A stretch of 32,793 nt of DNA from Acidimicrobiales bacterium (lineage in GTDB: Bacteria > Actinomycetota > Acidimicrobiia > Acidimicrobiales > SZUA-35): positions 1-32,793 of the forward strand of contig JAHEJM010000020.1 of assembly GCA_024638815.1 (NCBI GenBank), written 5' to 3'. Shown piece by piece: positions 2,671 through 17,869 of the stretch. Positions within the stretch are counted from its first letter, which is position 1. The number at the start of each line of letters is the position of its first letter. The notes under the pieces were generated by a model. It was not told where the DNA came from, ran no database searches, and was given only the letters and a program-made list of their open reading frames with translations. Made by a program: the position numbers and the translations under genes.

Positions 2671-2802
2671 TCAGCGATCCAGCAGACGGGCGCCGAGCCC
2701 GCTGAGCAGCATGAACATCACCAGCGCCGCAACCAGCAGAACGACGGGGCTCAACAGCGCTTCGACCACCATCTCTTGAATCGGTGTGGTGACGATCTCC
2801 AT
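2671..2802 (-). CDS. Small single-span membrane protein, 43 residues
   Basis: The ATG at 2802 follows GTGGAGAT closely; the ORF ends TGA at 2671. The product has an amphipathic, acidic N-terminus (MEIVTTPIQEMVVEALL), one hydrophobic span (about residues 19-37, VVLLVAALVMFMLLSGLGA) and a short RLLDR tail. It begins 32 bp after the stop of the UPF0104-type gene on the same strand, so it is the last candidate gene of the leftward operon. It resembles small accessory subunits of membrane complexes in size only. The short spacing of the ribosome site lowers confidence. Confidence 0.5.
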   Translation of the reverse strand: MEIVTTPIQEMVVEALLSPVVLLVAALVMFMLLSGLGARLLDR

Positions 2803-2834
2803 ATCTCCACTGTGACAGCGCAGAATGGACGTCT

Positions 2835-3926
2835 CTATCGGGCATCGCCCTGGACCGACCCTGAGAACCCTGACTCGGCATCAGGGGCGTGGCGCCAGCT
2901 GCGATTGGCTCGCCAGTACAGATAGGCCAGCACGCCAAGGGGTATGGGTAGGAAGTAGGTGAGGAACCGGAACATCAGCACGCCGGCCACCACAGCGGCC
3001 CTCTGCGACGCTTCGAGGTCGATGGTGAGGGCGGCCACGTAGCCGAGTTCGACGACGCCAACCCCGCCGGGGGTGATAGGGAGGGCCGAGATGAGGCGGA
3101 CGAAGGCGAAGGCGGCCAGCACCGCAATCCAGCTCACCGTGTCCTGATCAACCCCGACCAAGCGCAGGGCGGTGAGGAGCACGATGGCCAGCGAGAGGTG
3201 GCTGACGAACGATGCGAGGGTCAGCGCCTTCCACCGCGAAGAGACCAGATCAACGGTGTCGGCTCGGAATCGAACCACCGCAGAACCCCAGGTCGTGACA
3301 GGATCGCGGCCAGCGAGCCGACGCAACCGCGAGACGACACGACCGGCCCGGTCACCGATGGCTCGGGCCAGGTGGTCGCTTCGGAGGAGGAGGGCAAAGA
3401 ACACGATGCAGGCAATCAGGGCGGCGACTCCGGTCAGGGCACTCACAACCAGGGCAGTCGACACGCTTCCCTCGATCGCCAGGAGGCAGAGCGTGACCAC
3501 GGGGAACCCGAGTTTCATGAAGTTGTTCCAGATCCCGGAGATAACCACCGAGCGGGCGATCGACGCCGGCGTGAACCCCCACGATCGGCACATTGCGTAG
3601 GTCACCCCCACCCCCACGGCGCCGCCGGCCGGCACCGTGTTGGATATGGCGGTCGAGGCCTGGTTGACGACGGCGGCCCGCGGATAGGAGAGACCGGGGA
3701 GGGCGGCCACCATGACGAACCAGTAGGTGACCAGGTTCCATCCGGCGACGATGAGCAGCAAGGCCACCTCCCACCAGCTCATGGCGACGATGGTTGCCCA
3801 TACGTCGGAGTAGCTGGCGATCCGGGGTAGGACGCCGGCGAAGACGGCCACGACCACCGCCACCGAGAGGGCGATCCGCAACCCGTTCCGGAAAGACCAT
3901 TGCTCAGGCGTGGTCGGCTCGGTCAT
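2835..3926 (-). CDS. UPF0104 / LPG-synthase-TM-type flippase-like membrane protein
   Basis: A 363-residue polytopic protein with about eight spans. Landmarks of the lysylphosphatidylglycerol-synthase TM-region family are NQASTAISNTVPAGGAVGVG near the N-terminal third, a central cytoplasmic loop, and the C-terminal ALPITPGGVGVVELGY block followed by RAAVVAGVLMFRFLTYFLPI. Family members lacking the soluble aminoacyl-transferase domain, as here, are thought to move or handle lipids or lipid-linked intermediates across membranes; the substrate is unknown. The ATG overlaps the stop of the PAP2 gene as ATGA, indicating translational coupling. With a phosphatase directly upstream, a role in flipping or recycling a lipid phosphate is plausible but inferred. 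Confidence 0.85.
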   Translation of the reverse strand: MTEPTTPEQWSFRNGLRIALSVAVVVAVFAGVLPRIASYSDVWATIVAMSWWEVALLLIVAGWNLVTYWFVMVAALPGLSYPRAAVVNQASTAISNTVPAGGAVGVGVTYAMCRSWGFTPASIARSVVISGIWNNFMKLGFPVVTLCLLAIEGSVSTALVVSALTGVAALIACIVFFALLLRSDHLARAIGDRAGRVVSRLRRLAGRDPVTTWGSAVVRFRADTVDLVSSRWKALTLASFVSHLSLAIVLLTALRLVGVDQDTVSWIAVLAAFAFVRLISALPITPGGVGVVELGYVAALTIDLEASQRAAVVAGVLMFRFLTYFLPIPLGVLAYLYWRANRSWRHAPDAESGFSGSVQGDAR

Positions 3927-4519
3927 CGCGACCTCTCCGAGGTCAGGTGGACGGTAGCAGCTCGACCGGCGAGTACGCCGACGGCGGCCCCGCCCACAAC
4001 ATCAAGCGGCAGATGAGCCCCGACATAGATCCGGGCTCCTCCTGTCGTAGCGGCCAAGGCGGCTGCGACGAACCGAGCCCGGGGGGAGAGCCGCGAGGCC
4101 GCGATGATGGCCAGCGTGGTGGCCACCGCGGCGTGACCTGACGGGTAGCCCAGCCCGGACTGCTGATGGCCGCGGATCGAGACCGCGTCGAGATGGCAGG
4201 CCGGCCGACCACGGCCCACCATTGTTTTGATGGCCTTCACCCCGGCCCAGACCGTGATCCCGGCGAGCAGGGCGGCCCGCGCTCTACGGGCTTGGCCCGA
4301 CCGACGGAGCAGGTCCGACACCACAAACACGGCGGCCAGCGACCCGCTCTGCATTACCGCCCAGACCGGAGAGTGGAGCCGGTCGGGGGCACCGTTGATC
4401 AGGCGGAACAGCTGCTCCTCGGGGTCGCTCACCTCTCGGCGGCGCGCTGCGATCGAGCTGGCAATGAGGGCGGCAGCCGCCACCACCGGGATGGCGGGAC
4501 GGACCAGGCCACGCGTCAT
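3923..4519 (-). CDS. PAP2-family membrane phosphatase
   Basis: The 198-residue protein carries all three PAP2 signature motifs: KTMVGRGRP (98-106), YPSGHA (125-130) and ARIYVGAHLPLD (162-173, with the catalytic His and supporting Asp). PAP2 enzymes remove phosphate from lipid phosphates such as undecaprenyl pyrophosphate or phosphatidate at the membrane surface. About five or six spans are visible, with the active site facing outward in typical members. The start chosen is the ATG at 4519, which overlaps the upstream lipoprotein stop as ATGA; the frame is open upstream but that part is an arginine-rich shadow. Its own stop overlaps the next ATG. Unlike the fused PAP2 domain further upstream, this copy keeps the active-site residues. 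Confidence 0.9.
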   Translation of the reverse strand: MTRGLVRPAIPVVAAAALIASSIAARRREVSDPEEQLFRLINGAPDRLHSPVWAVMQSGSLAAVFVVSDLLRRSGQARRARAALLAGITVWAGVKAIKTMVGRGRPACHLDAVSIRGHQQSGLGYPSGHAAVATTLAIIAASRLSPRARFVAAALAATTGGARIYVGAHLPLDVVGGAAVGVLAGRAATVHLTSERSR

Positions 4520-5058
4520 AGCTCCTCGTCGATGAAAGTCTCGCGAATCGACCGATTGATCTCCGAGCGGGGGACGAGTGTCAACCGGGCCTGGAGATCG
4601 ATGGCCAGGGTGGCCGAGACGTCGGGGTCGAAGTCGAACTCCCAACGAACGCAGCCGCCGTCGAAGATGTAGATTCGCTCGCCCAGGAATCCGGGTTGGA
4701 TCCGCCCGATCGCCTCGTACGCCGGGACCCCACTCTGATCGCTCGGGACCAGGACGGCATCGGTGATGTCGCAATGCCGGTCGAAGACGAGCCGGGCCGC
4801 ATCCGTCCCGGCTCGATCCGAGTCCAACCGAACGACGCTACCGTTCTGGTCGACCCTGACGCTGTCGACCTCCCAGCCGTTGGGGAGGGGTTCAAGGCAG
4901 GGAACGAGCTTGGCGGTCGGGACCGACTGGGCGACGATCAGCTCCGATCCCCCGCCGACGCACAAGGGCGGGGGCAGGGCCTGCTCGATGGAGCAGGCAA
5001 CGCCTATTAGCCCAACGACTACGATGAGGGGGATGAGGAGTACACGGTTTGTGGTCAT
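4516..5058 (-). CDS. Putative lipoprotein, 180 residues
   Basis: The N-terminus (MTTNRVLLIPLIVVVGLIGV then Ala-Cys) is a short hydrophobic signal ending in Cys22; the residues before it are a weak lipobox because Gly stands at -3. The mature part is soluble with several cysteines (PLCVGGG, LVPCLEPL, RHCDI, GGCVRWEF) that could form extracytoplasmic disulfides. I do not recognise the fold. The ATG at 5058 overlaps the kinase-fusion stop (ATGA) and its TGA overlaps the PAP2 start, so it lies inside the coupled cassette. It is probably the exported component of this membrane system. Confidence 0.75.
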   Translation of the reverse strand: MTTNRVLLIPLIVVVGLIGVACSIEQALPPPLCVGGGSELIVAQSVPTAKLVPCLEPLPNGWEVDSVRVDQNGSVVRLDSDRAGTDAARLVFDRHCDITDAVLVPSDQSGVPAYEAIGRIQPGFLGERIYIFDGGCVRWEFDFDPDVSATLAIDLQARLTLVPRSEINRSIRETFIDEEL

Positions 5059-6707
5059 AGCAAGCCGATGTCGGAGAGGTTGTCGAGGAAGATCGAGAGT
5101 AGCGAGGCCACGATCAGCGCCACCCAGGCCGTAAGGCCGACTCGCCGGAGCGACCAGCGCTGAATGGCCACGGGCTTTCGGTCCGGGGCAAGACTGCGGA
5201 ACTGGTCGAGCAGGGCTCGACCGTCCCGACGGACCTGAGCTCGCAGCTGCGAGGGCAGCGTTACTCCCCGGGAGGCAGCGAAGGCTTCGGCGATCTCGTC
5301 TTCGCTGAACTGGAGCAACGCCCGCTCGTAGACCAGCTCGGGCGAACTCCCAAGCGCGAGCACCAGCATCATGTTGGCTAGGTCGACGGCCTGCCGCCAG
5401 GGTGAGGGGCGGACCTGGGCGAAGGCCACGTCGATCAGCCGGGGCTTGCCGTTCTGAACCATGACGTTGGCCGGCTTGATGTCGCGATGGGCCAGCCCGA
5501 CCTCCCACAGCCGGGCCACCTCGGCCAGCCCGGCGTCGATCAGCTCGACGGTAACCTCCATCTCGCTGATCTCTTTGGCCCCGGTCAGGAACTCGGTCAC
5601 CAACAGGTATTCCCGCTCGGGTGTGATCTCAATGAGCCCGAGCGGTTCGGTGCAACCGATGCCGGCTCGGCACATTACGTGAAGCATGTAGTCCTCGTGC
5701 TGGACGAGTCGCCGGACGGACGTGAAGTGCTGCTCATCCTCGAGGCGGCCGTAGAGGAGGGTTCGACCGAGCTTGTAGGACCGGTCGGAGCGGAGATGGT
5801 TCCGGGCATACAGCTTGGCGAAGATGTCGGGTCCGTCCCGCTGGCTGATGCGGAGTGGTGTCGACCCTGCCGAGCCCTCGAGTCCGACCGGCCTGATGTC
5901 GGTGGCCACGATGCCAAGCTGTTCTCGCAAGCCGAGCGTGATCGCCTCACCCCGGGCGCCGGTGACGTCGAGGTGAGCGGTCTTGCCGGTCCCATAGGCG
6001 ATGGGGAAGATGCGTTCCGGAGCAGCCACGCGGTAGAGCAGCAGGGTGATGGCAACCCCGGACGTGGCCGCCGATAGGACATCGCTCGGATGGTCGACCC
6101 CGACATACACCTGGGCCAGGCCGAATACCACGACCATGGCAGCCGCAGCAAGGGCCCAGATCCGGCGCCACCGACCCAACGGGGTCAGGGTCAAACCGCC
6201 GGCAACCAGGGCGGTGGTCATCAACGCCACCGGTTGCGACGGTTGAGCGAAGCCCTCCCAGTGGCCGATCTGGGTCACCCCCAGCGGCCGGGGACGGGAC
6301 ATCTCCATTGAGACGACGGTGGAAAGGGCGGCCACCACCGTGAGGGCGGCGATCAACAGCAGCACATGTCGAATGCGTCGGGCGGCCAGACCGCCGATGA
6401 TGATGCACCAACCGATGATGGGTGTGACCCACGACGTGCCGAGGCGGTTGATCCGCTGCATGGTTGGCGTCAGCCAGTCCTTCCGGTTGTCCACGATGGG
6501 ACCGGCGATCCCGAGGTCCCGCTCCGTGATCCAGATCGCCGGTGCGTCCGAGAAGACGATCCAGGCCCAGATGACCGCAAACCCGACAAAGGCCACCAGC
6601 CAGGCGATGGCCGCCCGGTTCAGCTCGTGGGGCAGCGGCGGCGGCTCCCCCGACGGTCGTCGCCGCCGCCCTTGCGGCGATTGACGCTCGGCCACCAGGT
6701 CCGTCAT
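5055..6707 (-). CDS. PAP2-like membrane domain fused to a protein-kinase-like domain
   Basis: The 550-residue protein has three parts. Residues 30-225 are a PAP2-like membrane region, but its active-site motifs are altered: MEMSRPRP (134-141) has Glu where Lys is expected, QPSQPV (155-160) replaces PSGHA, and AQVYVGVDHPSDV (198-210) lacks the usual Arg while keeping His and Asp. Residues 285-510 are kinase-like: a candidate ATP lysine in IFAKLYA (K298), the catalytic loop HRDIKPANV (407-415), and LIDVAF (424-429) where most kinases have DFG. A final span lies near residues 520-535. A likely reading is a membrane sensor with a non-catalytic PAP2 fold and a cytoplasmic kinase. It is coupled on both sides by ATGA overlaps. 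Confidence 0.85.
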   Translation of the reverse strand: MTDLVAERQSPQGRRRRPSGEPPPLPHELNRAAIAWLVAFVGFAVIWAWIVFSDAPAIWITERDLGIAGPIVDNRKDWLTPTMQRINRLGTSWVTPIIGWCIIIGGLAARRIRHVLLLIAALTVVAALSTVVSMEMSRPRPLGVTQIGHWEGFAQPSQPVALMTTALVAGGLTLTPLGRWRRIWALAAAAMVVVFGLAQVYVGVDHPSDVLSAATSGVAITLLLYRVAAPERIFPIAYGTGKTAHLDVTGARGEAITLGLREQLGIVATDIRPVGLEGSAGSTPLRISQRDGPDIFAKLYARNHLRSDRSYKLGRTLLYGRLEDEQHFTSVRRLVQHEDYMLHVMCRAGIGCTEPLGLIEITPEREYLLVTEFLTGAKEISEMEVTVELIDAGLAEVARLWEVGLAHRDIKPANVMVQNGKPRLIDVAFAQVRPSPWRQAVDLANMMLVLALGSSPELVYERALLQFSEDEIAEAFAASRGVTLPSQLRAQVRRDGRALLDQFRSLAPDRKPVAIQRWSLRRVGLTAWVALIVASLLSIFLDNLSDIGLL

Positions 6708-6805
6708 CGGGCCACCGTCCGGGCTCGACGAGCGATCTCGCCGGGCGGTTCCCGGCCCTCCGGCGATACCGGCGGACCACCACGTTCAATCGCTCGGCCG
6801 GTCAT
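6704..6805 (-). CDS. Small leader ORF, 33 residues
   Basis: An ATG at 6805, preceded by a GGTGGGGG stretch, opens a 33-codon frame rich in Arg, Pro and Gly whose TGA overlaps the ATG of the PAP2-kinase gene. The peptide has no hydrophobic span or known motif. It may be a leader that couples translation of the operon, or only an extended 5' leader; the four-base overlap is the sole positive evidence. Confidence 0.35.
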   Translation of the reverse strand: MTGRAIERGGPPVSPEGREPPGEIARRARTVAR

Positions 6806-6826
6806 GGGACCCCCACCGCCTGTTCG

Positions 6827-6842
6827 TGCAATACTACCAGTG
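6827..6842. promoter_or_regulatory. Divergent promoter with overlapping -10 boxes
   Basis: On the plus strand, TGC-AATACT (6827-6835) is an extended -10 placed about seven bases before the GTG at 6842, which has no ribosome site and would be translated leaderless. On the minus strand the same bases read TAGTAT (6836-6831), a good -10 for the leftward operon. Neither direction has a convincing -35. The whole gap between the two coding regions is 36 bp. Confidence 0.45.
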
Positions 6843-7753
6843 TGACAGTAGTGGCCCGGTTCGTGCTGGTCGCCACCGCGGCCGTCATGCTGGTTGCCGG
6901 CTGCGGCCGGGGTGAGGAACCGACCGGCGGGTCCGACGAGGCCGGGGTCAGGGTGGCCAGCTTCGACTTTGCCGAGAGCGAGCTGTTGGCCGAGCTGTAC
7001 GCCCAGGCCTTGGAGTCGGAATCCGTGCCGGTGACCCGCCTCGGCCAGGTCGGCCCCCGCGAGATCGTGGCTCCGGCCATGGAACTCGACCATATCGATG
7101 TCGTGGCCGAGTACCTGGGCACGGCGCTCCAGTATGCCGGTAGCACCGAGCCCAACCCCGACAGCGATTCGGCGTTCGAGGACCTGAATACCCGACTCGC
7201 TCCCAAGGACCTCGTAGCCCTCGCCCTGTCACCGGCCGAGGACAAGAACACCGTGGTGGTGACGGCCGAGGTGGCCGACGCGGGCCGGCTCGAGACCATC
7301 AGCGACCTCCGGTCGGTGGCGGACGGCTGGAAATTCGGCGGGCCGGCCGAGTGTCCCGACCGTCCGTTGTGCCTCGTCGGGTTGGAGAGCGTCTACGGCC
7401 TCCGGTTCTCCGACTTCGTGCCCCAGCGGTCATTGGCCTTCACCTCTGAGGCCCTGCGCCGGGGCGAGATCGATGCCGGGTTGATGTTCACCAGCGCGGC
7501 CGAGTTGGAAGCGAGCGATCTCGTCGAGCTGACCGATGATCTCCAGCTGCAGCCGGCCGAGAACATCGTGCCGGTGGTTCGTACCGAGGTCGTCCAGCAG
7601 TGGGGATCGTCGGTCACCGATCCGCTGGTCGCGGTGTCGGCCGCCCTCACCACAGACGAGCTGCGGGCCATGAATGTCCGGGTCGCCAAGGGAGACCCGG
7701 TTCCCGAAGTGGCGAGCGACTGGTTGCTGCGACACGAGCTGCTCGACCGCTAG
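6842..7753 (+). CDS. OpuAC/ProX-type betaine/choline-binding lipoprotein
   Basis: The 303-residue protein starts at GTG and has a clear lipoprotein signal: MTVVARFVLVATAAVMLVAG, then Cys21. The mature sequence follows the substrate-binding family for quaternary ammonium compounds: VRVASFDFAESELLAELYAQ, RLGQVGPREIVAPAMELDHI, DVVAEYLGTALQY, and later the lobe with RRGEIDAGLMFTS. The family feeds glycine betaine, choline or carnitine to an ABC importer. No permease or ATPase for this class is in the window, so this is an orphan receptor here. It diverges from the PAP2-kinase operon and converges with the MMPL gene: both stops lie in one CTAG, a four-base overlap. Confidence 0.85.
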   Translation: MTVVARFVLVATAAVMLVAGCGRGEEPTGGSDEAGVRVASFDFAESELLAELYAQALESESVPVTRLGQVGPREIVAPAMELDHIDVVAEYLGTALQYAGSTEPNPDSDSAFEDLNTRLAPKDLVALALSPAEDKNTVVVTAEVADAGRLETISDLRSVADGWKFGGPAECPDRPLCLVGLESVYGLRFSDFVPQRSLAFTSEALRRGEIDAGLMFTSAAELEASDLVELTDDLQLQPAENIVPVVRTEVVQQWGSSVTDPLVAVSAALTTDELRAMNVRVAKGDPVPEVASDWLLRHELLDR

Positions 7754-10644
7754 CCTGCCGGGTGGCCGGCTTGGGAATGGATGGCGGTGGCCCGGGAGTG
7801 CGGGTCGTACTCGTCGTGGGCGATTCCGGTCAGATCGAGCAGGTGCTGCCGCTCGGCCCCGGTTCGCCGTCTCGTGACCACCATGAGCACGCTGGGTAGC
7901 ACGAGCAGCGCCACCAGGAGCGAGAACACGATCATGACCGCGGTCAGCGTTCCGAAGGTGACGAAGATCGGCATGGGGGCGAAGGCCATGACGGTGAACC
8001 CGATGATGGACGACATGGCCGAGATGGCGAGGGCTCCGCCCGTTCCCTCGCCGGCCCGCCGGAGGGCGGGGAATCGGCTCGGTTCGTGTTCGAACTCCTC
8101 CCGGAACCTCATCGTGAAGTGAGTCGAGTAGTCGATGCCGACACCGACGGCGATGGCGGCGATGGTGGCGGTGACCACGTTGATCTTGTAGTCGGCCAGG
8201 TACATGAAACCGTAGACCCAGCCGACGACCAGCAGGATGGGTGTAACCGAGGCCAGGCCGTACTTGAGCGAGCGCATGAACACCGAGGCCAGCAGGGTAC
8301 AGAGCAACAGCGCTACCGGCAGGGCCAGCAGCATGGCGTCGGTGAAGGCGGCAAGCGTGTCCTGTCCCACGATCGTCTCACCCGAGACCCGGGCCGATGT
8401 CAGGCCGGCTCCCCCCGGGGAGGCCAGGAGTGAGTCGGCCGCCTCTTCGAGAGCCGATCGGGCGTCGAGAATGACGGCGTCCTCGGTCAGGGTCGGGATG
8501 CCGACCATGACCATGGTGGCGTAGTTGCCGGCCCCATCGGTCCACAGCAGCTCGGTCACGCTGTCGGCCGGGAAGGCGACAAACCCGTCGTCGGTGGTGA
8601 TGCCCTCGCTGAGCGCCAGATCGTAGATGGCAGCGATCTGGTCGGCGCCATCGGGCAGGCCGTCGCCGTCGGCGTCGGTAACCTCGATCCCGGCCGCCGC
8701 AGTCGCCGCCGGCGACGCCACTGCGGTACGGACAACGGTGACGGCGTTGTCGTGGACCGCGATCGCACCGTTCAGGTCCCTCGAGAGGTACGACTCGGCC
8801 GCCTCCGATTCGACCCGATCGAGTTCAGCCACCATCTCGTCGATGGCGACCAGTGCCGCCGGCTGAGTCAGATCGCCCTCGACGTAGACGAGGCCGGTGC
8901 CACCACCGCTGGTGCCACCGAAGTGGGTCTCCAGAAGGCCAAGGCTCTGGATGAAGTCGCTGTCTTCGGCGAAGAAGTCGCTGAAGGTGAACTCCGACTC
9001 GACCCGGGTGAAGCCGACGGCGCCGAGTATCGCCAGACCCACCGTGACGGGAATGGTGACCACCCGCCAGCGGGCCAGGAAGTGAACGACGGTACCGGCG
9101 GCCCGGAACCCGTGCCCGGCGCCCTTGATGACCTGGCCGGTGGGCCTCCCGTCCGCCTTCGCCTTGGCATAGATCCGCCTGGTCCACCGAATCGGTACAT
9201 AGACGAACAGGGGGACGAACACGACCAGCGCAGCGAAGCCGAGGACGGGCATGACAACGCTGAAAGTCACCAGTACGCCGGCGGCGATGGCCATGACGGC
9301 AAAACCGAACTTGTAGGGCAACATGAGGCCGCGATGAAGCGGTGGATCGCCGACCAGGTCCTCCACCCGCAGCTGCCACAGCGGAGCGATGATGCCGAGG
9401 AGGAAGAACCCGATAAGGAGGGCAATGGCGGTGCCGATACCGAACTGAACGATGGCTTGGATACCGGCCACTCCGTTCGAGACGAAGGCTGCAGCCGAGG
9501 AGATGGCGGCCAGAAGAAGAGCGGGGAACACAAGGGTCAGCCCTCGGGGGTAGGAGCGCTCCCGGGTGAGGCCGGCCACCTGTTGCTCCCGGGCCCGGCC
9601 GCTGGCATGGACGAAGAAGTCGACCCCGAAGGCGATCACCGAAATGGGGGCGATGAAGCCGAGGAGCATCCCGCCCTCGAAGCCGAGCAGGGTGAGGATC
9701 GCGTTGTACCACAGCATGGTGATGCTCAGGCCGACGGCCACCAGGGATGCGGCCCAGTAGGACCGCAGCAACGCCCCGACCAGCACCAGGATGAACACGA
9801 CCGACAGCAGGATGAAGGGAGCGGACTCGGCCAGCTGCTCCTCGGAGGTGAGATCGCCGTCGATGGCCACTCCATATGCCCGGTAGGCGGCCTGGTCGCC
9901 CTGCAGCACGGTTTGAACCTGGCGGAGGAACTCCTGGGCCTCGGGTCCGATCGGGCCGCTGTCGCCGGTTCCCCGGCCACCGAGGCCGGTCAGGTCGATG
10001 GCGACGGCCGCACTGAAGGCGGGGGCCTCCCAGATCACGAGCTCCTCGCCCCCCACCTCCCCTAACCGGCTGGTTGCCAGCTGGGAGAGGGTACCTCGGA
10101 GCGGTGTTCCCACCGATCCTTCACCGAGGATGGTGGCCAACGCCCGCTTCACATCGGCATCGGTCGCCGCCTCCAGGCCGCCCGGCAGTTCGGCGTCGAC
10201 CTTGTCGGCCAGCGAGAACACTCCGTCGACCTCCTCACCGAGATCGGGGCGGAACTCGGTGGCGAGATCGGAGCGGAGCTCGGCATCGGCCCGCAACGCG
10301 TCGGAGTTCTGTTTGAACTCGAGCAGCACGTCTCTGGTCAAGGCGTCGGGTTGGGCTCCGTCCTTGGCCTCGACGATGAAGAAGGCCCCGGCAATGGACG
10401 AGGCACTCTGGAACCGCTCGTCGACCAGGTCGAAGGTCTCGTAGATCTCACCGGACGGACTGAAATCGGGCTCCTCGGTCGCCCGGGAAGCGGCCAGGGG
10501 AGCGGCGACGACGGTCAGGATGGCGATGGCGATCGTCACCCACCGGACGTTGTCGCTCAACCGTTCGAACAGCGCAGCGCCCCGGTCACCGCTCCCGTCG
10601 GTTGTCGTCCCTCTGTTCTCGGGGGTTCTGATCTGTGTAGTCAC
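7750..10644 (-). CDS. MMPL/RND-superfamily membrane transporter
   Basis: The 964-residue protein has the two-fold RND layout: span 1 near residues 35-55, a large extracytoplasmic domain, a block of spans (VVFILVLVGALLRSYWAAS, then GFIAPISVIAFGVDFFVHA), and a second half with another soluble domain and closing spans (YKINVVTATIAAIAVGVGID, then YSTHFTMRFREEFE). The paired FGVDFFVHA and VGVGIDYSTHF segments match the family's sterol-sensing-like helices. MMPL proteins export lipids or other hydrophobic compounds. The second soluble domain carries DADGDGLPDGAD, a thrombospondin type 3-like calcium loop. The start is the GTG at 10644, which overlaps the partner gene's TGA as GTGA; the longer open frame upstream is the partner gene's shadow. 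Confidence 0.88.
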   Translation of the reverse strand: MTTQIRTPENRGTTTDGSGDRGAALFERLSDNVRWVTIAIAILTVVAAPLAASRATEEPDFSPSGEIYETFDLVDERFQSASSIAGAFFIVEAKDGAQPDALTRDVLLEFKQNSDALRADAELRSDLATEFRPDLGEEVDGVFSLADKVDAELPGGLEAATDADVKRALATILGEGSVGTPLRGTLSQLATSRLGEVGGEELVIWEAPAFSAAVAIDLTGLGGRGTGDSGPIGPEAQEFLRQVQTVLQGDQAAYRAYGVAIDGDLTSEEQLAESAPFILLSVVFILVLVGALLRSYWAASLVAVGLSITMLWYNAILTLLGFEGGMLLGFIAPISVIAFGVDFFVHASGRAREQQVAGLTRERSYPRGLTLVFPALLLAAISSAAAFVSNGVAGIQAIVQFGIGTAIALLIGFFLLGIIAPLWQLRVEDLVGDPPLHRGLMLPYKFGFAVMAIAAGVLVTFSVVMPVLGFAALVVFVPLFVYVPIRWTRRIYAKAKADGRPTGQVIKGAGHGFRAAGTVVHFLARWRVVTIPVTVGLAILGAVGFTRVESEFTFSDFFAEDSDFIQSLGLLETHFGGTSGGGTGLVYVEGDLTQPAALVAIDEMVAELDRVESEAAESYLSRDLNGAIAVHDNAVTVVRTAVASPAATAAAGIEVTDADGDGLPDGADQIAAIYDLALSEGITTDDGFVAFPADSVTELLWTDGAGNYATMVMVGIPTLTEDAVILDARSALEEAADSLLASPGGAGLTSARVSGETIVGQDTLAAFTDAMLLALPVALLLCTLLASVFMRSLKYGLASVTPILLVVGWVYGFMYLADYKINVVTATIAAIAVGVGIDYSTHFTMRFREEFEHEPSRFPALRRAGEGTGGALAISAMSSIIGFTVMAFAPMPIFVTFGTLTAVMIVFSLLVALLVLPSVLMVVTRRRTGAERQHLLDLTGIAHDEYDPHSRATAIHSQAGHPAG

Positions 10645-13269: not shown

Positions 13270-13962
13270 ATGACCGGGCCGTTCGCCACTCGCCGCTCCC
13301 TCCCGACACCTCTCGGTCTGACCATCGTGATCGTCGCCACGGTGGTGGCGGTGGGCTCGTCACTGGTCGCCGTCGATGGACGGGTGCCGGGGTGGGAGGA
13401 GGACGGACTGCGATTCATCAACCGCTGGCCCGACTGGCTCGAACCCGGTGTGTGGGTGCTGCAGCAGGTCGGTGTCCTGTTGGCCCCGCTCGTCGCCGGG
13501 CTGGTGGTGGCACGGTACACCCGCAACTGGTGGCACCTCCTGCCCTTCGCCCTGATCCTGCCACTCAAGTTGGGGATCGAGAAGGCGGTCGTCAAACAGC
13601 TGGTCGACCGGGAACGCCCCTTCGTGTCCGTGGGCCCGGACATCACGGTCCGGGGGCCGGCGTTCGATGGCCCCAGCTTTCCCTCGGGCCACGCCACCAC
13701 GGCGTTCGCCACGGCCGTGCTCCTGTGCGCGTTCCTTCCCCGCCGGTGGTGGCCACTCCCCCTGAGCTGGGCCGCGCTCGTTGGCATTGCCCGCCTGTAC
13801 TACGGAGAACACAACGTGCTCGACGTAGTCGCCGGAGCCGCCATAGGAACCGGGTTCGCCGCAATCCTATGGCTGGTCGTGGTGAACCGGCTCTTCGAGC
13901 GGGAGTCACACTCAGCCCCAACGGCCACCGGTGATCGGGAACAGCCGACATCGAGCCCCTGA
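13270..13962 (+). CDS. PAP2-family membrane phosphatase (rightward copy)
   Basis: The 230-residue protein has an intact PAP2 active site: KQLVDRERP (109-117), FPSGHAT (137-143) and ARLYYGEHNVLD (174-185). About six spans are visible, with a basic N-terminus and a hydrophilic tail. It would dephosphorylate a lipid phosphate at the membrane. It begins three bases after the MalT-like regulator stop without its own clear ribosome site, so translation is probably coupled. This is the third PAP2 fold in 10 kb and the second with complete catalytic residues. Confidence 0.88.
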   Translation: MTGPFATRRSLPTPLGLTIVIVATVVAVGSSLVAVDGRVPGWEEDGLRFINRWPDWLEPGVWVLQQVGVLLAPLVAGLVVARYTRNWWHLLPFALILPLKLGIEKAVVKQLVDRERPFVSVGPDITVRGPAFDGPSFPSGHATTAFATAVLLCAFLPRRWWPLPLSWAALVGIARLYYGEHNVLDVVAGAAIGTGFAAILWLVVVNRLFERESHSAPTATGDREQPTSSP

Positions 13963-13986
13963 TCCGCATGTCGCCCGGCCTCCAGG

Positions 13987-14361
13987 TCAGCCCAGATGTA
14001 GATCTCTGCGGTTGAGCAGGGCGATTGCGGGTAGCACCGGGATTGCGGTTAACGTAGCCAGTGCCGCATGGTGGCCTCACGGCATACCGGTGACCAGCGG
14101 ATTCTCGGTCAGGTAGTAGTAGAAGGGCGACCAGCGAGGCCAGTCGGCCGGCTGCTCGCTCAAAGGGAAGAAGGCGTTCACCAGGTACAGGGCCAGGGCC
14201 AGCCCCATCGAGACATACACCGACGGCGCCACCCGGCCGGTTGCGGCGGACAGGACCAAGGTCACCGCCCCGAACAACAACCCGAGAAGAGTGGCCAGAG
14301 CCGACCCAGCGGCAGCGTTGATTGCGTTCATGCCCAAATCGGAGATCCAGGAGCCACCCAT
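13987..14361 (-). pseudogene. ABC-2-type permease, C-terminal remnant with nonsense codon
   Basis: The frame encodes the last half of an ABC-2 permease: LATLLGLLFGAVTLVLSAAT, then VYVSMGLALALYLVNAF, the SPFYYYLTENPL segment, and after a TGA (14077-14079) GHHAALATLTAIPVLPAIAL with the usual NRRDL ending. In relatives the position of the TGA normally holds Trp, so a TGG-to-TGA change is likely. The first half of the protein is absent upstream of 14361. It faces away from the intact ABC genes to its right and is not part of that transporter. Confidence 0.65.
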
Positions 14362-14534
14362 GACCCCATCCTCACCGGGAGGCAGCGCCGCCTGGACGTA
14401 TCGTGGCCGGCGTTCGCCCCTACGGCCGACGGAATCTGGTGGCCCCCGGCGAAGGATGGGACCTTCGGCTCTTCGGTTCCGCCGTCGGACGAATTAACGA
14501 TAGAACCAAGGCGATCGACGGAGGGCTGAAGGTG

Positions 14535-15314
14535 ATGGCCGGTTTCGCAGGTATCACGACCGAACAGGACAGCGGTCCACAGGCTGCCGGCACCATGGCA
14601 GCGACCGCAACGAGGCTTACGAAGTTGTACGGCGAGGGCAACACCCAGGTCGTGGCCCTCGACGCCGTCGATATCGGCTTCGAGGCCGGCAAGTTGACGG
14701 CCATCATGGGCCCCTCGGGCTCGGGGAAATCGACGCTGCTGCATTGCGTCGCCGGTCTGGACTCGGTGACCGACGGGGAGGTGAGGGTGGGGGACACCCT
14801 GATCTCCGACCTTTCCGACCAGGAGCTGACCCTGCTGCGTCGTGACCGGATGGGCTTCATCTTCCAGGCCTTCAACCTGGTCCCGAACCTGACTGCCGAG
14901 GAGAACATTCTCCTACCCCTGCTCCTCGGGGGTCGTGAGCCCGATCCGGAGTGGCAGAAGCGCGTCATCGACAGTCTGGGCCTCGATGAGCGATTGCATC
15001 ATCGACCCGATGAGCTTTCGGGCGGGCAGCAGCAACGGGTCGCGGTGGCCCGAGCATTGATGAGCCGACCAGCCATCATCTATGCCGACGAGCCGACCGG
15101 AAACCTCGATACCAACAGCGGTCAGGAGGTACTCGGGTTCCTGCGCCGAGCGGTCGATGATTGGGGCCAGACGGTGGTGATGGTCACCCATGATCCTGGG
15201 GCCGCCTCGCATGCTGACCTCGTTGTGTTCCTTCGCGATGGTCAGCTGGTAGGGAGGCTCGAGAAGCCGACGCCTGATCTGGTCCTCGACAGGATCAGGG
15301 CGCTGGAGGCCTGA
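14535..15314 (+). CDS. ABC transporter ATP-binding protein, MacB/LolD-like
   Basis: The 259-residue ATPase powers the permease that follows. It shows Walker A GPSGSGKST (59-67), the Q-loop in FIFQAFNLVPNLT, the signature LSGGQQQRVAVARAL, Walker B IIYADEPTGNLD and the H-loop VTHD. This motif set is typical of the LolD/MacB/FtsE group that works with FtsX-type permeases in lipoprotein, lipid or peptide extrusion. The start at 14535 is preferred because GGAGGG lies nine bases upstream; an internal ATG at 14595 would also give a complete domain but has no ribosome site. The stop is five bases before the permease ATG. Confidence 0.92.
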   Translation: MAGFAGITTEQDSGPQAAGTMAATATRLTKLYGEGNTQVVALDAVDIGFEAGKLTAIMGPSGSGKSTLLHCVAGLDSVTDGEVRVGDTLISDLSDQELTLLRRDRMGFIFQAFNLVPNLTAEENILLPLLLGGREPDPEWQKRVIDSLGLDERLHHRPDELSGGQQQRVAVARALMSRPAIIYADEPTGNLDTNSGQEVLGFLRRAVDDWGQTVVMVTHDPGAASHADLVVFLRDGQLVGRLEKPTPDLVLDRIRALEA

Positions 15315-15319
15315 TCCCC

Positions 15320-17869
15320 ATGAACCCCGTGCTCCTCCTCGGTCGACGTAACCTGGCCAGCAGCCGGCTGCGGGTGGGTCTCACCGGCCTGGCCGTGATG
15401 GCCGGTGTCGCCTTCGTGGTCGCCTCGTTCGTCTTGTCCGACGGCCTGCGGGCAACGTTCAATCAGATCGTCGAGGACGTCAGCGCCGACATCGACGCCA
15501 CCGTCCGGGCAACGGGTGACTTCGCCGAGGTCACCTTCCAGGCTCAGACGATCGACGAGGGCGTGCTCGACATCGTGTCGGCCGTCGACAGCGTCGAGGA
15601 GGCTCTGCCCGCCCTGACCAGTTCGAAGATCGTCCCCATCGACGGCAACGGCGAGGCCATTGAGACGCTCGGCCCACCGATCCTTGCCGCCAACCAACAG
15701 GACTCGCCAACGTCGGCCGTCATGTTGGAGGAGGGCGAGCTGCCCGATGGTCCGGGCGAGTTCGCCATCGATTTCACCTCGGCCGGTACGTACGGGTTCG
15801 AGATCAGCCAGTCCTATGACATCGTCGGGGTCGAGGGCCGCGAACCCTTCACCCTGGTGGGAACCACACGTTTCGGTGAGGACAACGCGCTCGCCGGTGC
15901 CGTGCTCATGACGTTCACCCTCGATGAGGTCCAGCGCCTCGACGGCAACGATGGCAAGATCAACTCGATCGACGTGACGGCCGAGTCCGGCGTCAGTCCA
16001 GATGAGCTGATCGCCGACCTCGAGGCTGCCTTGCCCGCCGGACTGGAGGCAGTGGGTAGCGACGTCATCGTCGATGAGGGCCAGGAGGACTTCGGAGCCA
16101 CCGTCGACATCTTCGGCAACGTCCTTCTGGCGTTCGCTCTCGTGTCGGTGTTCGTGAGCACGTTCATCATCGCCAACACGTTCAACATCCTGCTCGGACA
16201 ACGGATCCGCCAGCTGGCACTCATCCGCGCCCTGGGAGCGAGCAGGAGGCAGGTACTGCTCGCCGCCCTGCTCGAGGCGTTCATCGTCGGCGTGATCGCC
16301 TCGGTCATCGGCCTGGCCGTTGGTGTCGGTCTCGCCTACGGGCTGCGTGCCATCATGAATTCGTTCGGGTTCAACCTGCCCGGTCTCGAGTTGGTGATCT
16401 CGGCCCGCACGATCATGACCGCCCTGGCCGTCGGCATCGGCGTCAGTCTGGCTTCGGCCCTGACACCCTCGCGTCGAGCAGCACGGGTGCCACCGGTGGC
16501 GGCCATGCGCGAAGGCTACCGGTACGGCTCGGGCGAGGGCACGCGGCGCACGATCATCGCCATCATCCTCGCTGTGCCCGGGGTCACCGGGATCGCCGTG
16601 AGCCTGTTCGGCAGCATTGACAGCACGCCGTTGTTGCTGTTGCTCCTCGGCGGGGGCGCGGTGCTCGTTTTCATCTCGGTCACCATGTTCGCGCCGCTGT
16701 TCTCAACCCCCTCGGCCCGCTTTCTCGGCGCACCGCTCGAGCGGCTGCCTTGGCTCGGCATAACCGGCCATATGGCCCGGGAGAACTCCTCCAGCGACAA
16801 CAAGCGCACCGCCCGCACCGCGGCCGGTCTCATGATCGGACTGGCCCTCATCGCCATGGCCACCGTCGTCGCCTCGTCGTTGAAGGACTCGTACCGTAGC
16901 ACCCTCGGTTCAACCCTCACCGCCGACTTCCTCATCAGCCCTCCAAACGGCGGAACGGGCTTCAGCACCGAGCTGGTTGACGCCGTCGCCGCACTCCCGG
17001 AGCTCGACCCCGTCAGCTCGACACGTCTCGGCAACATACGAGTCAACGGCAACGAGCACGATGTCCGGGCCACCGACCTGGCACTGCTGACAAACTTGTG
17101 GGACCTCGAGGTCATTTCGGGCGATCCTGCGACCAACGCCGGCCCCGACGTCGTGTCCATCCACGAGTCCGTGGCCAACGATCTCAACCTGGCCGTCGGT
17201 GACGAGCTCGACATCGAGTTCGCGGCCACCGGGACCAAGACGTTCACGGTGAACGCAATCTACGAGAACGCATTCCTCATCAGCAACTACCTCATCGACA
17301 AGTCGGCCTGGGACCAGAACTTCAGCCTCAACGAGGACATTTCCATCGTCGCCTCGGTGGCCGAGGGCGTCGAGATTGAAGCCGCTGCGTCCGCACTCGA
17401 CGAGCTCAACGCGGCGTTCCCACAACTGAACTTCGAGACGGGGGCCGAATACAGTGATCGCCTCGAGGGCCAGCTCGACTCGCTCGTCATCGTCATCAAC
17501 GTCTTCCTTGGTCTCGCCATCCTCATCGCCTTCCTCGGGATCGCCAACACCATGGCCCTCTCGGTGCTCGAACGGACCCGGGAGATCGGCCTCATGCGAG
17601 CCGTCGGCATGACCCGACGCCAGACGCGTGCGATGATCCGATGGGAAGCCGCAGTCGTGTCGCTCTTCGGTGCCCTGCTCGGGGTGGTCGTTGGTCTCGT
17701 CTTCGGCTGGGTTGCGGTCCAAGCCATCGCCATCGATCAATTCGCCATCCCGGTGTCCTCACTCGTGCTCTACGTACTTGTCGCCACCCTGGCCGGGCTC
17801 ATTGCCGCCTCCTTCCCGGCGCGAAGGGCATCACGGCTCAACGTCCTGGACGCCATCCACCAGCTCTGA
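15320..17869 (+). CDS. ABC transporter permease, two FtsX domains
   Basis: The 849-residue protein has the duplicated FtsX/MacB layout: an N-terminal span (about 18-40), a large periplasmic-type core domain, three spans near 265-390 with IRQLALIRALGASRRQVL, two linker spans, a second core domain, and a last three-span FtsX unit near 725-845 with TREIGLMRAVGMTRRQTRAM and the ending FPARRASRLNVLDAI. With the ATPase directly upstream it forms a complete exporter of the type that extrudes lipoproteins, lipids or peptides using mechanical force rather than a transmembrane channel. No membrane-fusion protein is adjacent. The substrate is unknown. Confidence 0.92.
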   Translation: MNPVLLLGRRNLASSRLRVGLTGLAVMAGVAFVVASFVLSDGLRATFNQIVEDVSADIDATVRATGDFAEVTFQAQTIDEGVLDIVSAVDSVEEALPALTSSKIVPIDGNGEAIETLGPPILAANQQDSPTSAVMLEEGELPDGPGEFAIDFTSAGTYGFEISQSYDIVGVEGREPFTLVGTTRFGEDNALAGAVLMTFTLDEVQRLDGNDGKINSIDVTAESGVSPDELIADLEAALPAGLEAVGSDVIVDEGQEDFGATVDIFGNVLLAFALVSVFVSTFIIANTFNILLGQRIRQLALIRALGASRRQVLLAALLEAFIVGVIASVIGLAVGVGLAYGLRAIMNSFGFNLPGLELVISARTIMTALAVGIGVSLASALTPSRRAARVPPVAAMREGYRYGSGEGTRRTIIAIILAVPGVTGIAVSLFGSIDSTPLLLLLLGGGAVLVFISVTMFAPLFSTPSARFLGAPLERLPWLGITGHMARENSSSDNKRTARTAAGLMIGLALIAMATVVASSLKDSYRSTLGSTLTADFLISPPNGGTGFSTELVDAVAALPELDPVSSTRLGNIRVNGNEHDVRATDLALLTNLWDLEVISGDPATNAGPDVVSIHESVANDLNLAVGDELDIEFAATGTKTFTVNAIYENAFLISNYLIDKSAWDQNFSLNEDISIVASVAEGVEIEAAASALDELNAAFPQLNFETGAEYSDRLEGQLDSLVIVINVFLGLAILIAFLGIANTMALSVLERTREIGLMRAVGMTRRQTRAMIRWEAAVVSLFGALLGVVVGLVFGWVAVQAIAIDQFAIPVSSLVLYVLVATLAGLIAASFPARRASRLNVLDAIHQL

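Follow-up and report, generated by a model that had tools for sequence, protein, structure and literature searches.

The window analysed here, a stretch of 32,793 nt, contains four minus-strand genes, designated K, LP, PAP2 and UPF0104, and, divergent from K, a gene for an OpuAC-type solute-binding lipoprotein (Table 1). A sequence check confirmed the four open reading frames (ORFs) at the positions given by the first-pass annotation, as well as the successive overlaps it had described, all of 4 bp: S33/K (6707–6704), K/LP (5058–5055), LP/PAP2 (4519–4516) and PAP2/UPF0104 (3926–3923). That annotation missed the divergent OpuAC partner and counted as members of the set two small ORFs, S33, within the divergent K-OpuAC promoter region, and M43, downstream of the operon and starting 32 bp past the end of UPF0104. 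Because neither has a positional counterpart in relatives, we rejected both; they are probably not genes and probably lie outside the system. Scans revealed no promoter-like site inside the operon and no sigma-70-type consensus in the divergent region, although this is weak evidence.

Table 1. Features of the K locus (positions in the window).
Feature	Coordinates	Strand	Details and evidence
M43, 43-aa membrane ORF, not conserved	2671..2802	-	best tblastn E 0.075; no positional counterpart
UPF0104 / LPG_synthase_TM flippase-like membrane protein	2835..3926	-	363 aa; PF03706, TIGR00374, K-linked clade
PAP2, putative lipid phosphatase with three catalytic motifs	3923..4519	-	198 aa; Pfam 61 bits
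LP, lipoprotein, extracytoplasmic domain partner of K	4516..5058	-	180 aa; four invariant Cys in alignment; fusion to K, AF2
K, 6-TM PAP2-like pseudophosphatase domain, cytosolic Bud32/RIO-like kinase domain, C-terminal TM	5055..6707	-	550 aa; Pfam PAP2 + Pkinase, 16-row alignment, 55-row residue counts, AF2 model of fused relative
S33, 33-aa ORF, probably not a gene	6704..6805	-	no positional counterpart in relatives
Divergent intergenic (shared promoter) region, OpuAC versus K	6708..6841	.	sequence
OpuAC-type orphan solute-binding lipoprotein, divergent from K	6842..7753	+	303 aa; GTG start, or GTG at 6851; PF04069 131.7 bits
MMPL/HAE3 transporter, lineage-specific neighbour only	7750..10644	-	Pfam MMPL; near K in 7/55 loci

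Inspection by eye of the region downstream of the operon identified the start of a SulP-like transporter gene that then breaks off (480–780) and, on the minus strand, an integrase-like C-terminal fragment (1946–2230), which suggest a decayed mobile element. On the plus strand (13270–17869) the window also contains another PAP2 gene that looks intact, with the ATPase and permease genes of a MacB/FtsX-type ABC system behind it; this ABC pair also adjoins K in the Acidimicrobiia loci L009, L011, L015 and L100.

The signature of PAP2 enzymes is K(X6)RP-PSGH-SR(X5)H(X3)D, and the His of its third motif (C3) is the nucleophile in PgpB (PMC7413402). Both the N-terminal domain of K and the separate PAP2 protein are homologues of these phosphatases, but K lacks the two His residues of an active PAP2 enzyme, whereas the separate protein keeps the motifs. 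The C3 nucleophile was found in none of 55 K proteins, its place being taken by Asp (46 sequences), Glu (5), Asn (3) or Ala (1), and the His of the second motif (C2) is kept in only one of them; in a motif alignment of K with the solved PgpB from B. subtilis, PSGH is replaced by PSRP and H by D. Other positions of the domain are retained, with C1-Arg and C2-Ser each present in 54/55 proteins and C3-Arg in 36/55, and the kinase Lys, HRD, Asn and DFG-Asp are kept in all 55. The complete loss of the nucleophile and the complete retention of the kinase residues indicate that hydrolysis by the PAP2 domain was lost whereas selection has maintained the kinase, and the number of distinct sequences rules out a sequencing error as the origin of the motif loss. 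Bud32, PRPK and RIO were among the foldseek matches of the model of a K relative, so that residues and predicted fold both place K in the Bud32/RIO group of protein-kinase-like proteins. As judged from its sequence, K joins a pseudophosphatase to a Bud32/RIO-like kinase that looks intact. Although inactive, the PgpB variant H207A gains strongly in stability with phosphate (PMC7413402), and binding of phosphate or of a lipid by the K PAP2 domain is therefore conceivable; the Asp replacing the nucleophile could, however, repel phosphate, and this weakens the idea of a lipid-phosphate sensor.

LP is situated beside K in 49 of the 51 distinct loci with room for it, and in 16 of these 49 both are fused, with the LP domain carried on the C-terminal TM of K and the lipobox replaced. 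On a quick tree of K, the fused or split state changed at least four times. The single-chain AF2 model of a natural fusion (L012) comprises six TM helices, the kinase, one TM and the LP domain (mean pLDDT 78.7), and the LP domain alone, also modeled as a single chain, reached a pLDDT of 89.5. We infer that LP supplies the outside domain of K. LP had no family match by sequence in Pfam, NCBIfam or the PDB, and foldseek gave weak similarity to PsbP-like proteins, Apa and RseB, with TM-scores of ~0.4 and no E < 0.001. The LP genes of loci L070, L081, L103 and L116 contain an extra insertion of ~100 residues in the second half of the domain.

The OpuAC proteins linked to K are monophyletic and separate from their same-genome paralogues. 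Several of the latter (e.g., C222 and C158) have ABC permease and ATPase genes next to them, whereas a survey of the K loci found no ProV/ProW-type permease or ATPase recurring beside the K-linked proteins; OpuAC thus has the PF04069 domain of an ABC transporter component but not the neighbouring ProV/ProW genes. The positions of the aromatic cage, which we take from OpuBC/OpuCC and mapped onto OpuAC by alignment only, are occupied in most of 32 K-linked sequences by Y, N, F and E instead of the four aromatics of a quaternary-amine binder. The pocket therefore appears remodelled, and its ligand is probably not plain glycine betaine.

UPF0104 matches PF03706 with 63.7 bits (cut-off 33.4 bits), which places it in the LPG_synthase_TM family, together with the UPF0104-type domains that scramble lipids in MprF (PMC11980842). 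It differs from MprF in consisting of the TM domain only, without a C-terminal aminoacyl-PG synthase domain, and in belonging to its own K-linked clade, which a draft FastTree phylogeny, a few rows of it partial, separates both from paralogues and from the UPF domains that are fused to kinases. The separate PAP2 protein contains KX6RP, PSGH and SRX5HX3D, with A for S in C3, and from these motifs it looks like a working lipid phosphatase; the motifs are complete in 34 of 51 partner PAP2 proteins.

Proteins with a kinase fused to UPF0104 occur in 12 of 149 sampled genomes (~8%, actinobacterial), including that of the window, where an 840-aa product (G000:C114; L002 655–3177, minus strand, also L118) contains a kinase-like region and an LPG_synthase_TM domain. 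This architecture, apparently undescribed, resembles the K locus in joining a kinase and then a flippase, here in one chain, but these proteins are a separate family, with a UPF domain outside the K-linked clade and no LP. One guess, based on model matches that overlap by 18 residues in L104, is that the last TM of K may be a remnant of the first TM of the flippase.

Acidimicrobiia MAGs, one Frankiales MAG and the cultured Blastococcus haudaquaticus encode relatives of K, with up to three copies per genome. K relatives occur in 7/39 genomes of the family searched, 12/248 of the order sample and 26/396 of the phylum sample, a distribution that is patchy but broad, across several actinobacterial groups. 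The surroundings of the K loci were fetched and annotated with models built from the window, leaving 55 K proteins after dereplication at 90% identity; in the locus counts relatives figure as independent loci, short contigs are frequent, and MAGs make up most of the genomes. OpuAC was near K in 33/55 loci (17/24 where flanks are long enough), UPF0104 in 26/55 (13/24) and a separate PAP2 gene in many of the 55. Against a background density of six OpuAC and five UPF genes per 4.7 Mb, the binomial probability of linkage to K by chance is ~1e-28 for OpuAC and ~1e-17 for UPF, with loci treated as independent, which related genomes are not. Neither gene is an obligatory neighbour of K, since OpuAC is absent from some long-flank loci and UPF from about half of them.

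All five families coincide in 14 loci (L073 counted once), arranged in eight or more different ways as to order and orientation. The same families thus recur with K in varying arrangements, which indicates that composition is conserved and order is not. The first-pass annotation had made its proposal depend on conservation of the gene order in other genomes: the gene set is indeed kept over several actinobacterial groups, but its order is shuffled beyond the closest relatives. A search across the K loci for other recurrent neighbours identified no broadly distributed family, its results being limited to transporters of particular lineages and a small number of local genes; the MMPL and MacB/FtsX transporters were discarded as core members for being lineage-specific. 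The closest relative, L005, has its PAP2 gene (5730–6230) broken up over different frames and a short OpuAC, the result of either decay or MAG errors. Locus L116 is a single contig with two divergent K copies, between which there are MMPL, PAP2 and a kinase-flippase fusion.

Transmembrane receptors stimulated by solute-binding proteins (SBPs), Ser/Thr kinases included, are well established (PMC9602780). By analogy, the closest working counterpart of the K locus is GlnH-GlnX-PknG from Corynebacterium and Mycobacterium, where a solute-binding lipoprotein signals to a kinase (PMC9769921, PMC6069109). Both combine an actinobacterial orphan solute-binding lipoprotein with a membrane partner and a Ser/Thr-type kinase; however, PknG is soluble and the helical protein GlnX has four TMs, whereas the kinase of the K locus shares its chain with a dead PAP2 domain and has LP, a flippase relative and a phosphatase as linked partners, and OpuAC belongs to a different SBP family. 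The mycobacterial MviN-FhaA-PknB system, as described in PMC11898655 (Gee 2012), likewise links a lipid flippase with both a kinase-like domain and control of the envelope, but MviN, the lipid II flippase, is of MurJ type with a pseudokinase domain, while K keeps its kinase residues and the flippase is UPF0104. We found no published description of the five-gene set in the open-access literature searched, in agreement with the first-pass annotation; given this scope, the missing description is not proof of novelty. The set looks like an undescribed envelope-sensing switch.

We tentatively propose, by analogy with GlnH-GlnX-PknG, that these genes encode an SBP-gated receptor kinase in a complex that surveys the envelope of the cell and tunes its lipid handling. 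Its functional steps are inferred from the observed gene set, the dead PAP2 domain accompanied by conserved kinase residues, the K-LP fusions and the separate OpuAC and UPF clades. The lipid-anchored orphan OpuAC would capture a soluble envelope ligand and then dock on LP, the extracytoplasmic domain that exists either as a lipoprotein or in fusion with the last TM of K. The pseudo-PAP2 domain, unable to hydrolyse, may read a membrane lipid or act as a scaffold, so that alongside OpuAC-LP it would allow K to integrate two inputs. The Bud32/RIO-like kinase would phosphorylate a cytosolic target, with K itself (at the conserved serine of its N-terminal RRPSGE), the UPF0104 protein or another regulator as candidates. 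As output or feedback, a lipid would cross the membrane via UPF0104 and lose its phosphate to PAP2. The pairing of LP with K, their 16 fusions, the 6TM-kinase-TM-LP layout and the kinase-flippase fusions argue for such a receptor, as do the retained kinase residues next to a lost PAP2 nucleophile and the monophyly, altered pocket and missing ABC neighbours of OpuAC. Likewise, the K-LP fusions and the orphan solute-binding protein favour the single membrane device with a kinase output put forward by the first-pass annotation, whereas the sensing of a lipid phosphate is at most suggested by a PAP2 domain that is dead but keeps C1-Arg and C2-Ser.

It is more doubtful that K represents a new kind of receptor kinase, with its dead lipid phosphatase as a membrane lipid sensor and the SBP-lipoprotein pair as an outside sensor, both integrated by the kinase to control a scramblase-like protein; a dead PAP2 domain acting as sensor would, if true, be unusual. 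By linking a kinase with an SBP, a flippase relative and a lipid phosphatase, this conserved module, which the cultured B. haudaquaticus also has, makes both the stimuli of bacterial Ser/Thr-type kinases and the control of UPF0104 flippases testable.

Against the receptor stand the loci without OpuAC or UPF0104 near K and a kinase substrate that could also be a lipid, as in its main rival. Here PAP2 would dephosphorylate a lipid carrier outside, UPF0104 would return it and K, as a lipid kinase, would rephosphorylate the lipid presented by its 6-TM pseudo-PAP2 domain. We consider this rather unlikely: three of the five members come from lipid-handling families, the dead PAP2 fold keeps C1-Arg and C2-Ser and kinase-UPF fusions exist, but the cycle gives no reason for the orphan solute-binding protein or for an extracytoplasmic LP domain that is nearly universal, and the similarity of the kinase is to protein kinases (Bud32/PRPK/RIO) rather than to known lipid kinases of bacteria.

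An envelope lipid or head-group transporter, in which OpuAC and LP pass a ligand or lipid to UPF0104 under regulation by K and PAP2, and MMPL or MacB-type exporters finish the process, seems improbable. It would fit the weak fold similarities of LP and the presence of MMPL and of an FtsX/MacB permease near K, each in 7/55 loci, but these exporters are lineage-specific and the LP scores are low. Even less probable is an ordinary co-location of unrelated envelope genes kept together by vertical descent: although some loci are close relatives and the MMPL and ABC neighbours fit such descent, the five families are found together again in other orders and orientations, K and LP were repeatedly fused and split, and the spread over the phylum sample is patchy.
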